From Limibacillus halophilus (GTDB lineage Bacteria; Pseudomonadota; Alphaproteobacteria; Kiloniellales; CECT-8803): a stretch of DNA of 64,000 nt. Shown piece after piece: positions 33,081 through 39,937 of the stretch. The stretch spans positions 372,001 to 436,000 of the forward strand of contig NZ_JACHXA010000002.1 of the NCBI RefSeq assembly GCF_014191775.1. Reading direction: 5' to 3'. The position numbers were made by a program, and so were the translations under genes. The notes below the pieces were generated by a model. It had not been told where the DNA came from, did not search any database, and worked only from the letters and a program-made list of their open reading frames with translations. Numbering within the stretch: position 1 is the stretch's first letter; every line of letters starts with the position of its first letter.

Positions 33081-34292
33081 TCAGAAAACATCAAGCTGGC
33101 TGCCTGGCTCGGGCGTTTGGGTGAAGCGCCCGGCAAATGCCAGCAGTGTCTCGTCGCCTCCCTGTTGTGCCATCAGCGAGAGCCCCATCGGCAAACCGCC
33201 AACTTGCGCCACCGGCAGGCTGATCTGCGGTGTACGGGCCAAGGGAGACGCACAGGAGATGCGCAAGGTGTTCAATCGCCATTCGCCCAGTGAGTCTATC
33301 GGTTGATCCAAGCGCGGAGCCGGACCCAGGGCGCTGGGTAGGCAAAGCAACGCACCCTCGTGAAGCAGCTCGCTCAACCATTCGGTATAAACAACACGTT
33401 GCTTTTCAGCTGCCTGGACTTGCACATCGGTTACCGCGGCGGCTTGGTGGAAACGTTCGGCGACGTCGGGGCTGATATCCTCCCAGTGCCGGGTGACCCA
33501 ACCTCCCTGCGCCGTCCAGGCCTCGCGCGCCTGAATAAGGCGGAAGACCTCCCGAAGGTTCTCCAGGTTGCCCATTGGTCCCGCGAGATTTATCGCCGTC
33601 ACACTCCCGAAGCGGTCCTTCAAGCGTTTTACCTGAGGGTCGAGCGCGGTCCGTACCGCCGGGTCCAACAAGGCAAAGGCATCTTCGGCCAACAGCAGGC
33701 GGCGTGGTTCAAAGGACGCGACTGCCTCGCGATTCAAGAGCAAGGCGGCGATACGCGCCAGCAGGGCGGCGTCACGGGCGAACCAGCCTACTGTATCGAA
33801 GCTGGGGGCGAGCGGTACGACGCCTACTAGAGGCACGCGGCCATGCGTCGGGCGCAGACCGAAAAGACCGCAATAGCTGGCCGGCACCCTGACTGAGCCG
33901 CCTGTATCGCTGCCCAAGGCAAAATCGCAGAGGCCACCGGCGACAGCCGCTGCCGATCCGCTGGAGGAACCGCCAGTCACTCGGCCCGGCGCTTCCGAAT
34001 TAGTTGGCGCACCGTAATGGCCATTGATCCCATTCATGCCATAAGCGAATTCATCGGTGATGGTTTTGCCGATTAATCGCGCGCCGGCCGACAGGAGACG
34101 TGCAACAGACGCGGCGTGTGCGGATGCCTCCGGATGATCACGACGAAAAGCCGGATTTCCTGCACTGGTCGCCTGCCCGGCGACGTCAAACAGGTCCTTG
34201 ACGGCAAAAGTCAAACCGGCAAGCGGCCCGACCTCGGTTTCCTGCAGACTGAACAAGCCGTCCGGCATAAAGGCGCCCAGGGGATCTTGCAT
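33081..34292 (-). CDS. Amidase signature family protein
   Basis: A 403-residue amidase. The Ser-cisSer-Lys triad is in place: Lys in TFAVKDLFDVAG (about residue 33), and the two serines in the GGSSSGSAAAVAGG and SDTGGSVRVPAS segments. It hydrolyses an unknown amide; the length is short for GatA, and no gatB or gatC is nearby. Start at ATG 34292; a GTG lies one codon upstream. The P1-type peptidase gene upstream ends 44 bases before its start, so the two may be one catabolic pair. Confidence 0.88.
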   Translation of the reverse strand: MQDPLGAFMPDGLFSLQETEVGPLAGLTFAVKDLFDVAGQATSAGNPAFRRDHPEASAHAASVARLLSAGARLIGKTITDEFAYGMNGINGHYGAPTNSEAPGRVTGGSSSGSAAAVAGGLCDFALGSDTGGSVRVPASYCGLFGLRPTHGRVPLVGVVPLAPSFDTVGWFARDAALLARIAALLLNREAVASFEPRRLLLAEDAFALLDPAVRTALDPQVKRLKDRFGSVTAINLAGPMGNLENLREVFRLIQAREAWTAQGGWVTRHWEDISPDVAERFHQAAAVTDVQVQAAEKQRVVYTEWLSELLHEGALLCLPSALGPAPRLDQPIDSLGEWRLNTLRISCASPLARTPQISLPVAQVGGLPMGLSLMAQQGGDETLLAFAGRFTQTPEPGSQLDVF

Positions 34293-34336
34293 CACAACTC
34301 TTTCTTCAATCCTAAACGCGGCCGCACCAGCAGTGT

Positions 34337-35416
34337 CTAGCGGGCCACACGAGCCAGAACCCTTTGCACGACGGAATCCGGCAATGCAGGGACGAAGTTG
34401 CTGTCTCGTCCAGTCATGTCCTCGTTGACGAAGATGCTGTCCAGGATTGCTTCGTCACTGGCCTCGACCACCGCTTCGAACAACGGGTCGAGGCTGTCGT
34501 TTGCCAAATAGGTTGCCGTCGCAAAGCCGTCTCTAACCGCGGCCGCTTGGGCATTGGCGGTCGAAAACGCCAGGAAAATATCACCAGAACCGTTGTGCGA
34601 AATACTGCCCGAGCGCGCCATACCAAGCCCGACGCGCTGAGCCAGACGGCGTAACTGATGGGGCAACAAAGGCGCATCCGTCGCGACGACGCCGATGATA
34701 GAACCCGCGGGCTTTCCACGGAGCTCGTCGCTGCAATCCAGTTCCAAACCGATCGGCACCCCACAAACCACAAGCTCACGACGACGACCGAAGTTCGCTT
34801 GCACGAAGACGCCCAGGTTGTAGTCGGCGCCACAAACCCGCACCCGGCGCGATGCGCTGCCGCTACCGCCCTTGTAGCCGTAACAAATCATGCCTGTGCC
34901 GCCCCCTAGGCTGCCCATCGGCAAGACGCCTGAGGAAGCTGCGTCCAGAGCCGCCATCGCATGCTCCGGGCGGACATGAAAACCGTTGATATCATTCAAC
35001 TCGCCATCATAGGTCTCGCCCACTACTGGTAGACCCCAAGCGGTCAGGCGTTTGTGTCCCTGCTGCAATCCCCAGCGCAGCACCCCTTCGTGGACGGCAC
35101 CCACGGAATGCGTATTGGTGATGGCGATCGGCCCTTCCAACAGCCCGCCTTCAGCAATCCAGTGGCAGCCGCTTAACTCACCGTTGCCGTTCAGCGAATG
35201 GTAGGCTGCGAAGACGGGCGTCCCAACAGCCTTCAGACCGCGCGGCAGGATGGCGGTGACGCCGCTGCGCACCGGCCCCTGTCCAATCACCAGCGGCCCG
35301 TCGCCCTGGATCAACGTGCTATAGCCGACCGCCACGCCGGGCACGTCGGTGATGGCGTTAAAGGAACCGGGAGTTCCGGGGAGCGGCAAACCCCACTCCC
35401 GCGCACGCTTCGTCAT
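34337..35416 (-). CDS. P1 family peptidase (DmpA/BapA-type aminopeptidase)
   Basis: A 359-residue protein of the self-processing DmpA family (beta-peptidyl or D-/L-aminopeptidases). Family signatures are PGVAVGYSTL near the N-terminus, TNTHSVGAVHEG, GGGTGMICYGYKGGSGSASR, and the GSGDIFLAFSTAN segment that should hold the Ser nucleophile exposed by autocleavage. Substrate specificity cannot be read from the sequence. It precedes the amidase gene on the same strand. Confidence 0.88.
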   Translation of the reverse strand: MTKRAREWGLPLPGTPGSFNAITDVPGVAVGYSTLIQGDGPLVIGQGPVRSGVTAILPRGLKAVGTPVFAAYHSLNGNGELSGCHWIAEGGLLEGPIAITNTHSVGAVHEGVLRWGLQQGHKRLTAWGLPVVGETYDGELNDINGFHVRPEHAMAALDAASSGVLPMGSLGGGTGMICYGYKGGSGSASRRVRVCGADYNLGVFVQANFGRRRELVVCGVPIGLELDCSDELRGKPAGSIIGVVATDAPLLPHQLRRLAQRVGLGMARSGSISHNGSGDIFLAFSTANAQAAAVRDGFATATYLANDSLDPLFEAVVEASDEAILDSIFVNEDMTGRDSNFVPALPDSVVQRVLARVAR

Positions 35417-35440
35417 GATTCTACCTCGCTGAGGCTTCGT

Positions 35441-36820
35441 TCAACGGTCCACAAAGGCTCTTATCTCCCGACGGGAGACTAAATGGAAGCGGAGTGAAAG
35501 CAAGATGGCTGCGGTCATGAGTCCGGCGGACATACCCAGGAACAGGCCCTTCACACCCATTTCCTGATGCAAGCCCAGAAACCAGGCCAGCGGCACCGCC
35601 ACGATCCAGAAGGACGTGAAATGGAACAACGTCGGAAAGAGCACATCTCCCGCCCCCCGCAAGGCCCCCAACATCACGGCCTGTGCGCCATCGATCAGGA
35701 TGTAGAGAGCGATGATACTCAAGGCTGAAGCAGCGACCGCCATAACGGCGGCATCATCCGTGTAGAGTCCCGCGACCCATTCGAGGTCGAGATTGAGCAA
35801 GATCGAGATCACTAACATACAGAACAGCACCAGCCCCATGCCTGTCCAGCCGGCCAGGGCTAAGCCGATGCGATCCCCTCTGCCGACCGCGTTTCCGACC
35901 CGCACGGAGGCGGCGACCATCAGGCCCAAGCCGACCATGAAGATCAGTGCATTCACGTTCATCGCCGCTTGATAACCGGCCAGGCTCGTCTCGCCCATGA
36001 GGCCCGCGAACATTGCAACGGTCGAAAAAGCCAGGGTCTCTGAGCCGATCGCCAAGCTATAGGGGACGCCAATCCTAAGGAGGTCGGTAAAGCGCGCACC
36101 GGCAGGGTCGCCGCGCCCCGGTCGAAGGGCATACTTGCCGACCTCGGGAAGATTGAAGGCGAACAGCAATAAGGCCGCCGCCATTGCCCAACGGGTAATC
36201 GAGGTCCCCAGCGCGGCGCCAGCCGCTCCCATCGCCGGCGCGCCGAGATTGCCCTCGATCAGGAGCCAGTTGAGGCCAAAATTGAGGAAATTCGCTAGAA
36301 AAGTGACCAAGGTCACGAAGCGCTCTCGACCGATGGTCTCTAACATGAAGCTTGTGGTTATGAAGATAAGCAACCCCGGCATGCCGTAACCAAACATCTC
36401 CAACACGCGCGCACCGCCGGCAGACAAATGCGCGGACTGTCCGATTGCCGTGAAGAAGCTTTGGCCGAACAGAGTCATGATTCCGGTGATCAATCCCAGA
36501 ACCGTCGCCAAGATCAGACCCGTGCGCCAAATCGGCCCGCAGCGCGCAAAACGCCCTGCGCCGTCCGCTTGGGCTATCAGCACAGGGACCCCGCTAAGCA
36601 ATCCCAGGCTGATTACGAAGAGCGGCATGTGCGGAGCGAATGCCAGGCCGTAAAATGCCAACTCCTCCGAACCGGTCTGGCCGACCATGACCGTATCGAC
36701 GGTAATGAAGGCTACCGTTCCCGCACGCGATAAAGTCACTGGAATCGAAAGCGTCAGGGTTCGTCGGACATTGTATCCGATCTGGTGAAACTGATTATCC
36801 GGCTCGCGTCCACTGAACAT
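35441..36820 (-). CDS. norM: MATE family multidrug efflux protein
   Basis: A 459-residue protein with 12 membrane segments in two bundles, of the NorM branch of the MATE family. Conserved pieces include TLSIPVTLSRAG, VDTVMVGQ in the first bundle and RIGVPYSLAIGSETLAFS in the second. It exports cationic drugs in exchange for Na+ or H+. It begins a minus-strand run with the P1 peptidase and amidase genes, 24 bases from the former. Confidence 0.88.
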   Translation of the reverse strand: MFSGREPDNQFHQIGYNVRRTLTLSIPVTLSRAGTVAFITVDTVMVGQTGSEELAFYGLAFAPHMPLFVISLGLLSGVPVLIAQADGAGRFARCGPIWRTGLILATVLGLITGIMTLFGQSFFTAIGQSAHLSAGGARVLEMFGYGMPGLLIFITTSFMLETIGRERFVTLVTFLANFLNFGLNWLLIEGNLGAPAMGAAGAALGTSITRWAMAAALLLFAFNLPEVGKYALRPGRGDPAGARFTDLLRIGVPYSLAIGSETLAFSTVAMFAGLMGETSLAGYQAAMNVNALIFMVGLGLMVAASVRVGNAVGRGDRIGLALAGWTGMGLVLFCMLVISILLNLDLEWVAGLYTDDAAVMAVAASALSIIALYILIDGAQAVMLGALRGAGDVLFPTLFHFTSFWIVAVPLAWFLGLHQEMGVKGLFLGMSAGLMTAAILLSLRFHLVSRREIRAFVDR

Positions 36821-36969
36821 GGCGAAGACGCTAATGCAAGCAAACGCCGGGGGAAAGGATTGGTGGCCTCAACTCAGCTCTTTGTAATTGTGGGTTGTGC
36901 GCAAGCGCCGGTAAGGGTAAATAAGACAGGATCGTGCGGGACATACCCGCACTCTCGAAGAGCGAGCGA
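36821..36969. other. Spacer between norM and the leuA leader
   Basis: About 150 bases of divergent promoter region. It must hold promoters for the MATE gene (minus) and for the leuA leader transcript (plus). I see no convincing -35/-10 pair or palindrome. Confidence 0.4.
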
Positions 36970-37107
36970 ATGATGCAAACGACGCGTCACCACGACAGCA
37001 CGACGATCTCGGCCCAGGCGGCCGCGCGTACTGCTGCCCGCTCGACCCTCCTTTCAGCTTGCGACCTCGGCCTCGGCCTAGAGGCCCTGCTCCTTATTCG
37101 CCCCTGA
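36970..37107 (+). CDS. leuL: Leucine-rich leader peptide of leuA
   Basis: A 45-codon frame with ATG at 36970 (a second ATG follows directly) and GAAGAGCGAG just upstream. Eight Leu codons fall within residues 27-42, including a run of three at 40-42; codons used are CTC, CTT, CTA and CTG. The peptide is otherwise Thr/Ala/Arg-rich and unlike any folded protein. Its stop (TGA, 37105) lies inside the 5' arm of a strong hairpin (37101-37147), and leuA starts 97 bases later. This is the layout of a translation-sensing attenuator: scarce Leu-tRNA would stall ribosomes at the Leu codons and change the downstream fold. Confidence 0.65.
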   Translation: MMQTTRHHDSTTISAQAAARTAARSTLLSACDLGLGLEALLLIRP

Positions 37108-37147
37108 TCGCCCGAGCGGCCCGTTAGCGGCTGCAAGTGGTCAGGGG
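37101..37147 (+). promoter_or_regulatory. Leader hairpin upstream of leuA (candidate attenuator)
   Basis: CCCCTGATCGC (37101-37111) pairs with GTGGTCAGGGG (37137-37147), an 11-bp stem with two G-U pairs. An alternative hairpin, GGCCTC/GAGGCC (37069-37074 with 37081-37086), lies within the Leu codons. No T-run follows the main stem, so control may be by Rho or by ribosome access rather than by a classical terminator. Confidence 0.5.
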
Positions 37148-37204
37148 ATTGAAACGGCGAGCAACGTAGGGTCTTACCGACCGCTTATCACGAGGAACGA
37201 GATC

Positions 37205-38761
37205 ATGAGTACCAAGACAAACAAATCCAATCGCGTCATCATTTTCGACACCACCTTGCGCGACGGCGAGCAGGCACCGGGCTGTTCGATGAACCTGGAA
37301 GAAAAAATTCAGGTCGCCCAGGTGCTCGACGAAATGGGTGTGGACGTTATCGAAGCTGGCTTCCCCATCGCCTCCAACGGCGATTTCCAGTCGGTTCAGG
37401 AAGTCTCGAAGCGGGTCAAGAATGCTCAAGTGGCCGGTTTGGCCCGCGCCACGCGCAAGGATATAGACCGTGCGTGGGAAGCTTTGCAGCCTGCTGTTAA
37501 CCCACGCATTCACAGCTTCCTGTCCACGTCGCCTCTGCACATGAAGTACAAGCTGCAAATGGAGCCGGAAGCCGTACATCAAGCGGTGGCCGACAGCATT
37601 TCCTACGCCCGCAACCTCTGTGACAACGTCGAGTGGTCACCCGAAGACGGCACCCGAACCGAGCATGATTTCCTGTGTCGCTGTGTCGAGACCGCCATCA
37701 AGGCCGGCGCCAGCACGATCAACATTCCAGACACGGTCGGATACACGGTGCCTGAGGAATTCCATGCCCTGATCGAGATGCTGATGAATCGGGTGCCCAA
37801 CATCGACAAGGCGATCATCTCGGTACACTGCCACAACGATCTGGGCCTGGCGGTCGCCAACTCCCTGGCAGCTTTGAAAGCTGGTGCCCGGCAGATCGAA
37901 TGCACGATCAACGGTATTGGCGAACGGGCCGGTAACTGCGCCATGGAAGAAGTTGTCATGGCCTTGCGCACCCGTAGCGATGCGATGCCCTACGAGAGCG
38001 GCGTCGACACAACCCAGATTATGCGTGCGTCCCGCCTGGTATCGACGGTCACTGGCTTTTCCGTCCAGCCCAACAAGGCCATCGTCGGCGCCAATGCCTT
38101 CGCCCATGAAAGCGGCATCCATCAGGACGGCATGCTCAAGAATGCCCAAACGTACGAGATCATGACGCCGGAGTCGGTCGGGTTGACCCGCTCGAACTTG
38201 GTGATGGGCAAGCATTCGGGCCGCCATGCCTTCAAGGCGAAGCTAGAGGAGTTGGGTTTCGAGTTGGCGGAGAACGAGTTCCAGGATGCTTTCGTCCGCT
38301 TCAAGGATTTGGCGGACCACAAGAAAGACATCTACGACGAGGATATCGTTGCCTTGGTCGATGATGCGGTGGTACGCACCAACGATCACATCCGGTTTGT
38401 CTCCCTTCAGGTCGTCTGCGGTTCGACCGGTCCGCAAACCGCCGAGTTGGCTTTGACCGTAGAAGGTGAGAGCAAGGCCAACAAGGCGGAAGGAAACGGC
38501 CCCGTCGACGCGACTTTCGCTGCAATTCGCAGCATTGTCCCGCATGAGGCCAAGTTGCAACTCTATCAAGTGCATGCCGTGACCGGCGGCACCGACGCGC
38601 AAGCTCAGGTTACGGTTCGGTTGGAAGAAGACGGCAAAACCGTCATCGGCCAAGGAGCCGACCATGACACGCTGGTCGCCTCTGCGCGTGCCTATGTCAA
38701 TGCATTGAACAAGCTGTTGGTTAAGCGCGAAAAGGGACTGCCGGAAGCCATGACAGCGTGA
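37205..38761 (+). CDS. leuA: 2-isopropylmalate synthase
   Basis: A 518-residue enzyme, first step of leucine synthesis from 2-oxoisovalerate and acetyl-CoA. The catalytic barrel shows FDTTLRDGEQAPGCSM, the metal-binding HCHNDLGLAVANSLAAL and NGIGERAGN. The C-terminal regulatory domain from about residue 395 (VSLQVVCGSTGPQTAELAL) binds leucine for feedback. Length matches the type I family. The start has an AGGAACGAG ribosome site. Behind the leader peptide, both translation sensing and feedback by leucine are likely. Confidence 0.96.
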   Translation: MSTKTNKSNRVIIFDTTLRDGEQAPGCSMNLEEKIQVAQVLDEMGVDVIEAGFPIASNGDFQSVQEVSKRVKNAQVAGLARATRKDIDRAWEALQPAVNPRIHSFLSTSPLHMKYKLQMEPEAVHQAVADSISYARNLCDNVEWSPEDGTRTEHDFLCRCVETAIKAGASTINIPDTVGYTVPEEFHALIEMLMNRVPNIDKAIISVHCHNDLGLAVANSLAALKAGARQIECTINGIGERAGNCAMEEVVMALRTRSDAMPYESGVDTTQIMRASRLVSTVTGFSVQPNKAIVGANAFAHESGIHQDGMLKNAQTYEIMTPESVGLTRSNLVMGKHSGRHAFKAKLEELGFELAENEFQDAFVRFKDLADHKKDIYDEDIVALVDDAVVRTNDHIRFVSLQVVCGSTGPQTAELALTVEGESKANKAEGNGPVDATFAAIRSIVPHEAKLQLYQVHAVTGGTDAQAQVTVRLEEDGKTVIGQGADHDTLVASARAYVNALNKLLVKREKGLPEAMTA

Positions 38762-38828
38762 AATAGCCGCTGTGGAGGATTTCGTTACGATTGGTAAAAG
38801 ACAAAAAAACGAAAGACTGCCTTGAAAT

Positions 38829-38869
38829 CGTCACGGCGGAGCGTTAAGCGTCAACGCACCGCCGTGACG
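38829..38869 (+). terminator. Long hairpin between leuA and mreB (probable terminator)
   Basis: CGTCACGGCGG pairs with CCGCCGTGACG, and inside it GCGTT pairs with AACGC: 16 base pairs with one A-A mismatch and a 7-base loop. Only a short CTTTC follows, so it may be a Rho-independent terminator of weak type or an RNA-stability element. Confidence 0.55.
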
Positions 38870-38896
38870 CAACCTTTCATAGGGTATTTAGTCTAA

Positions 38897-39937
<1,041 letters not shown>

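Follow-up and report, generated by a model that had tools for sequence, protein, structure and literature searches.

How could leucine supply act on leuA at a locus in which a short leucine-rich reading frame and a hairpin precede the gene, and which part of this leader would carry the response? In the window, the whole stretch of 64,000 nucleotides from Limibacillus halophilus that was analysed, the initial annotation had described a 45-codon frame with eight Leu in sixteen residues, ending with TGA inside an 11-bp hairpin and followed by leuA 97 bases later, and each of these features was found again when the sequence was re-read (Table 1). The Leu-rich stretch is LLSACDLGLGLEALLL, and the peptide ends in ...EALLLIRP directly before the TGA. 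A second in-frame ATG is present at 36973, and a GTG at 36934 would lengthen the frame to 57 residues. The second hairpin that had been reported over the Leu codons is present in the predicted fold of the window as a local 4-bp GGCC/GGCC stem (37075-37086). The leuA product scored 735.6 bits against TIGR00973 (cut-off 598.7) and is, judged by its sequence, a bacterial-type 2-isopropylmalate synthase. The MatE transporter gene upstream (35441-36820) runs in the opposite direction, so that the leader and leuA head a unit of their own, and mreB follows leuA. On the minus strand (33081-36820), genes for an amidase, an S58-family peptidase and the MatE transporter stand in a row, divergent from leuA.

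Table 1. Features of the leader and of leuA in the window.
Feature	Position	Strand	Basis
Leader ORF, 45 codons (ATG at 36970) plus TGA (37105-37107), ending ...LLSACDLGLGLEALLLIRP*	36970..37107	+	sequence
Helix P0, 5' strand (putative anti-Shine-Dalgarno), codons A-C-D-L-G-L	37057..37074	+	MFE fold; swap tests over relatives
Leu codons CTG CTC CTT, likely stall codons, directly 5' of ANN-NRC-CCC-TGA	37087..37095	+	sequence; pattern in relatives
Hairpin P1, 5' arm, holding the Pro codon and the stop codon	37101..37111	+	sequence, fold, covariation
Hairpin P1, 3' arm GTGGTCAGGGG, no T-run after it	37137..37147	+	sequence, fold, covariation
Helix P0, 3' strand, covering the leuA SD and start codon	37192..37210	+	MFE fold
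leuA Shine-Dalgarno (SD) GAGGA, inside the P0 3' strand	37192..37196	+	sequence; fold
leuA (start at 37205), 2-isopropylmalate synthase, candidate regulated gene	37205..38761	+	Pfam HMGL-like and LeuA_dimer; TIGR00973

Known families did not account for this leader. Its region (36850-37260) had no match in Rfam release 15 at E values up to 10, the window and 20 loci yielded only tRNAs and no leader family at the Rfam gathering thresholds, three leader peptides had no match in NCBIfam, and a search for a plasmid copy of the leader gave no match. The 256-base leader RNA was predicted to be more stable than its shuffles (z -2.41, 2 of 200 equally good), a value that is weak by itself; the evidence that the element is not a product of chance is its conservation, as read from the sequences of relatives.

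Relatives were compared, as the initial annotation had proposed, and both conserved Leu codons and a stem with compensatory changes were found. The first set comprised 130 loci (80 leuA loci from genome contigs, the leuA loci of 49 whole genomes and the window), all of them retrieved as relatives of the LeuA in the window and one of them (L081) a duplicate of the window. The motif CTT-[ACG]NN-N[GAT]C-CC[CT]-T[GA][AG] was present upstream of leuA in 97 of the 130 loci (94 distinct; 88 with a narrower pattern). Loci missed by the motif include 7 of 8 from Pelagibacteraceae and one from Paramagnetospirillum, and several others are variant or decayed. In most relatives an upstream ORF with the C-terminus LLLxxP* or LRLxxP* is evident. 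A held-out set was derived from 88 loci with LeuA by dropping 10 off-pattern loci, 7 duplicates and 3 loci with a distant LeuA, which left 68 loci, 60 of them non-redundant; both sets together gave 140 non-redundant loci. In all 140 the leader frame could be read without a stop from a start codon 8 or more codons upstream; in the other two frames this held for 80 and 60 loci. Leu codons averaged 2.65 in the leader frame vs 0.91 and 0.36 in the other two, counted over ten codons with the pair next to the motif excluded. The stop position held TGA in 121 loci, TAG in 7, TAA in 6 and TGG in 6, of which only the proportions are informative as the pattern demanded a stop or TGG; in the six TGG loci the frame ends 3-8 codons later. 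The presence of CTT in 154 of 154 loci is likewise an effect of the pattern, and covariance-model matches with CTA exist. In four loci with TGG (Trp) at the usual TGA position (L022, L061, L070 and L038), P1 can still pair through G-U. A Leu-Arg-Leu type of leader, in which CTN-CGA-CTT-A replaces CTN-CTN-CTT-A, was also seen (for example in L014, L114 and L118), and CGA (Arg) occupied the codon before CTT in 59 of the 154 loci.

The hairpin that carries the stop codon, P1, pairs CCCCUGAUCGC with GUGGUCAGGGG over 11 bp, two of them G-U. In an alignment of the relatives (A1; 94 rows, 91 distinct), 92.3% of the cells over 10 pairs were paired and 6 of the 10 pairs had changed on both sides, and none of 500 shuffles reached either value; cells changed on both sides numbered 28 vs 7.5 in shuffles (28 reached by 0 of 500), and further pair types reached the observed count in 8 of 500. 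Sliding the partner by 1-3 columns lowered pairing to 26-54%. The second base of the stop codon covaried with its partner (G-C in 80 loci, A-U in 8, G-U in 3). All of these values are inflated by the choice of the 3' arm for its complementarity to the 5' arm. When the first downstream GGGG was taken as the 3' arm, all three stop-codon positions paired in 62 of 94 loci, against a permuted mean of 57.3 and a maximum of 62 over 2000 permutations. The three inner pairs, which lie outside the choice of the arm, had 17 cells changed on both sides and 26, 13 and 16 of 90 cells each unpaired. The arms are also kept in sequence beyond their pairing (CCCCUGA/UCAGGGG), partly due to the search pattern, and the interior of P1 varies in length and sequence among loci. 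Between the P1 arm and a point just beyond the leuA start lie 18-199 bases (median 68). P1 probably folds the spacer between the strands of a second helix, described below, and brings these strands together. Two candidate structures of the linker were rejected: the linker as an alternative partner of the P1 3' arm gave no signal (z -0.2), and a linker hairpin had no general extra stability (mean z -0.29; 11 of 130 below -2). The interior of P1 and the linker had weak extra complementarity (z about -3, not localised), which perhaps reflects a pseudoknot or shared ancestry.

The arms of P1, being conserved in sequence and not in pairing only (though partly through the search pattern), agree with a structured RNA that is bound by a protein or a small molecule and whose ORF mainly keeps the region open, as does the dispensability of the exact stop in the six TGG loci among 140. 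A ligand-binding RNA of this sort was at one time put forward for the LEU element of Actinobacteria, which is described below. Such an RNA leaves unexplained that the Leu enrichment is specific to one frame, and it fits poorly with the variable interior of P1, and we regard it as decidedly unlikely.

The absence of a T-run after the main hairpin, stated in the initial annotation, was borne out by a terminator scan of 36700-38950, which returned no site on the plus strand and one on the minus strand. Of 94 loci, 3 have TTTT directly behind the P1 3' arm and 4 carry TTTTT at some place in the linker. By the scan and these counts an intrinsic terminator was ruled out in the window and in almost every relative. 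Transcription termination is the textbook mechanism of amino-acid attenuators, and the enterobacterial leu operon attenuator (Rfam Leu_leader) combines a Leu-codon leader peptide with a downstream hairpin, leuA being the first gene. The locus studied here has the same order of Leu-codon leader, hairpin and leuA as first gene, but it has no T-run terminator and no Rfam match, and the SD, not a terminator, looks like its expression platform. That P1 acts as the terminator of a classical transcription attenuator is thus hardly credible on the T-run counts, even though a Leu leader overlaps a G+C-rich hairpin and, right before leuA, one locus (L050) has a hairpin with TTTTGCTTTTTT after it.

The same lack of a T-run after P1 (TTTT in only those 3 of 94 loci) would be expected if the position of the leader ribosome decided whether Rho loads in the gap between leader and leuA, the helix at the SD being secondary. 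The tnaC leader, which ends Pro-stop with no intrinsic terminator after it, is a case of such ribosome-controlled Rho termination. The leader studied here likewise ends Pro-stop without an intrinsic terminator and is followed by untranslated RNA (median 68 bases); it differs in that no nascent-peptide signal is evident and that the six TGG variants of 140 stop only 3-8 codons later. Rho-dependent termination predicts neither the complementarity between leader and SD that is described next nor its match to the SD of whichever gene comes first, and we consider it unlikely.

In the predicted fold of the free RNA of the window, the leuA SD pairs with the leader at a probability of 0.73, in an interrupted helix (P0) whose longest run is 5 bp. 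Pairing of this kind was compared across loci with a swap test, in which each leader was paired with the SDs of other loci, so as to discount the pairing that any pyrimidine-rich Leu codons would make with a purine-rich SD. With a leader window of -22 to +1 from CTT and an SD window of -22 to +1 from the start codon, own pairs reached -12.99 kcal/mol and swapped pairs -11.25 kcal/mol in 82 non-redundant loci (z -5.7, 0 of 2000 permutations). The signal was found with leader windows starting at about -46 to -14 and with SD-side windows at -46 to -22; leader windows at -86 to -54 and linker windows at -58 or farther gave z values of -0.9 to +0.8, and the three leader windows most distant from CTT (-110 to -94) were exceptions at z -1.2 to -1.8. 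In the 60 held-out loci own pairs again exceeded swapped ones (z -5.9 and -6.4, 0 of 2000 permutations), and there the signal was centred on the Leu codons (leader windows -30 to -6; -46 and -38 only about -1). Uninterrupted helices of at least 8 bp, one G-U permitted, occurred in 38 of 140 own pairs vs 12.2 among swapped pairs (0 of 5000). A GC-matched swap left the own pair better in 95 of 137 loci (p 6e-8). Control positions elsewhere than at the SD and the leader end gave own pairs no significant advantage on either side and at several of them a disadvantage, and pairing of the linker with the SD was below that of swapped linkers (z +2.8, 80 loci).

The real codons were also set against synonymous codons drawn from pooled codon usage. 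They paired better than the mean of the draws in 76% of the 140 loci and were among the best 5% in 30 of the 140 (p 3e-10), so that the complementarity does not come from the Leu codons only. RNA pairing thus seems, from these sequences, to limit the choice of codons more than the peptide alone would; in the window itself, 28% of synonymous leaders pair equally well. In the first swap test only 2 of 94 loci had their own SD as the best partner (median rank of the own SD 26). When the own SD was replaced by those of the five nearest relatives the difference was insignificant (-16.14 vs -15.37, p 0.11), replacement of the own leader by those of the neighbours gave -14.30 (p 9e-7), and both sides combined gave p 7e-4. 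Part of the swap signal is common to close relatives.

Loci that had been dropped for pattern or for a distant LeuA could be used as a further comparison. A helix of at least 7 bp with the SD of the first gene was found in 8 of 12 such loci and in 17% of swaps; these 12 are the 13 drops minus L211, and L171/L173 as well as L170/L177 look like close relatives. In L163 and L165, 8-bp leader helices match, at each locus, the SD of a cupin-like gene. Taken with the swap tests, the comparison suggests that the Leu-codon end of the leader probably pairs with the SD of its own leuA. Weak own-over-swapped pairing was also seen between leuA positions +2 to +25 and leader positions -34 to -11 (z -2.9 in the 82 loci, -2.8 in the held-out loci), and P0 may continue into the beginning of leuA.

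We propose, with a probability of about 0.65, that the element is a leucine-sensing translational attenuator whose Leu codons serve as the anti-SD. Comparison of sequences supports the leader ORF with its Leu enrichment, P1 and the complementarity between leader and SD; from these we infer stalling, the direction of the response and control at the level of translation. The last third of the leader, rich in Leu codons, would double as the anti-SD strand against the leuA SD, and P1, enclosed by P0, would draw the two P0 strands together. With ample leucine, ribosomes would complete the leader and depart, P1 and P0 would form, and leuA would be translated poorly. With scarce Leu-tRNA, a ribosome would stall on the Leu codons and cover or unwind the anti-SD strand, and the leuA SD would be freed. 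The initial annotation had read the locus as a leader of attenuator design that is not a classical intrinsic-terminator attenuator, and this stands, with frame, Leu codons and hairpin conserved; as to the device, it had offered Rho termination or translational coupling as possibilities, and the comparative data point instead to sequestration of the leuA SD by the leader end.

The effect of ribosomes on this structure was modelled crudely, with an assumed footprint and with trailing ribosomes ignored. Ribosomes on the three Leu codons raised the mean accessibility of the SD from 0.24 to about 0.42 over 135 of the 154 loci (the other 19, without a scorable SD, were left out), and the gain was above 0.3 in 50 of the 135. 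A ribosome at the stop codon gave a mean of 0.39 across loci, near the Leu-codon value, and in the window, under the multi-locus settings, the SD was most open with the ribosome at the stop (0.68; Leu codons 0.25-0.41). In the simulation of the window alone, an A site at -27 to -3 from the last Leu codon left SD-leader pairing at 0.00-0.23 vs 0.73 in the free RNA. With the upstream RNA free to fold, the SD then paired elsewhere (unpaired 0.18-0.38 vs 0.22); with the RNA behind the ribosome ignored, accessibility was 0.51-0.72, except for 0.18 at -15. A stall on the last Leu codon left P0 intact in the masked model, and in the masked simulation a break of P0 alone did not free the SD.

Modelled ribosomes at the stop thus opened the SD about as well as those on the Leu codons, and any ribosome on the leader end would open P0, both of which suit simple translational coupling, where translation of the leader opens the leuA SD without sensing leucine. 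Coupling gives no reason for the frame-specific Leu enrichment, nor for the Leu codons being retained at the leader end in loci whose best duplex is located farther upstream (L096, L107 and L110 among them), and it appears very improbable to us. The proposed attenuator has a relative in the translational attenuation of erm resistance genes, in which a ribosome stalled on the leader frees the SD of the next gene and the signal is a drug. A stalled leader ribosome would likewise free the SD of the next gene here, but the signal would be a codon-specific shortage of an amino acid, and the anti-SD would lie in or beside the sensing codons.

The distribution of the element was assessed with a covariance model (R1). 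It matched in 124 of 385 alphaproteobacterial genomes, which partly overlap those whose element built the model, with one copy in each bar one genome with two, and the matches cover 97 of the 277 alphaproteobacterial genera sampled. Ninety of the 125 matches were inspected, namely the 30 best and 60 more, 20 of these from the weak end. The best 30 all lie directly before a leuA, and a LeuA homologue was nearby in 88 of the 90, the other two (L164 and L178) being weak matches. In a phylum-wide sample 55 of 299 genomes had a match, all of them Alphaproteobacteria, a count that is not evidence of absence elsewhere as the classes of 224 genomes were unlisted. The element is present in Bradyrhizobium (L065), Rhodoblastus (L060), Methylobacterium (L058) and Caulobacter (L070), groups in which laboratory strains exist.

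An element of comparable design, the predicted LEU element, has been described before leuA of Actinobacteria (Seliverstov et al., 2005; PMC1262725); in the accessible part of that paper it consists of a Leu-codon leader and a pseudoknot, with a base stem between the Leu run and the leuA SD, and a protein ligand is favoured. The same part reports a similar leuA region of Streptomyces in which mutations of the leader deviated from the predictions of classical attenuation (PMC1262725). In both elements leuA is preceded by an ORF that contains a Leu-codon run, and the proposed base stem, formed by this run and the leuA SD, encloses a further structure; that text reports no terminator. There the enclosed structure is a conserved pseudoknot; in the present element the stop-codon hairpin takes its place, with a pseudoknot weakly hinted. 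The two elements, one from Actinobacteria and the other from Alphaproteobacteria, are set side by side by design and not by sequence homology. The idea of pairing between Leu run and SD is itself already known from the LEU element; new, with respect to the accessible text, are the spread across Alphaproteobacteria, the comparative support and the different inner structure. The element also bears on the unsettled mechanism of the LEU element, as it offers the same kind of pairing with a simpler inner structure and many sequences to test on.

In the literature covered by our search, which did not include the texts of the likeliest sources (Vitreschak et al., 2004; Lopatovskaya et al., 2010), no recognisable description of the element in Alphaproteobacteria was met. 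An alphaproteobacterial ilvB leader peptide is credited to Vitreschak et al. (2004) in the accessible part of PMC1273637. A term search of the accessible text of PMC1273637, PMC8632094, PMC2965389, PMC4833913, PMC10272879 and PMC10117765 did not find the element.

The odds are in our estimate even that this is an undescribed, class-wide alphaproteobacterial leucine sensor in which the sensing codons are the anti-SD. Such a sensor would do in translation what the enterobacterial leu attenuator does in transcription, and would be convergent with the LEU element; it would also be a movable unit, which stands before two distant kinds of LeuA and, in one lineage, has its pairing adapted to the SD of a cupin-like gene. 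If this is true, Leu codons that act both as sensor and as anti-SD would make a compact translational attenuator.

Several loci depart from the arrangement of the window. In L166, L168 and L214 the element precedes a LeuA only about 29-30% identical to that of the window, which from the N-termini we take to be of the yeast type; the control unit may have stayed, or moved, during a change of enzyme type. L163 and L165 have the order element, cupin-like gene (named by eye) and leuA. In L050 a Leu-rich leader (...LLTLLRLTLIPASGG*) is followed by a terminator-like hairpin (a CCCCCGG arm, then TTTTGCTTTTTT) right before leuA, in the bases before 1428, and this locus is apparently, from its sequence, a similar sensor on a transcription platform.
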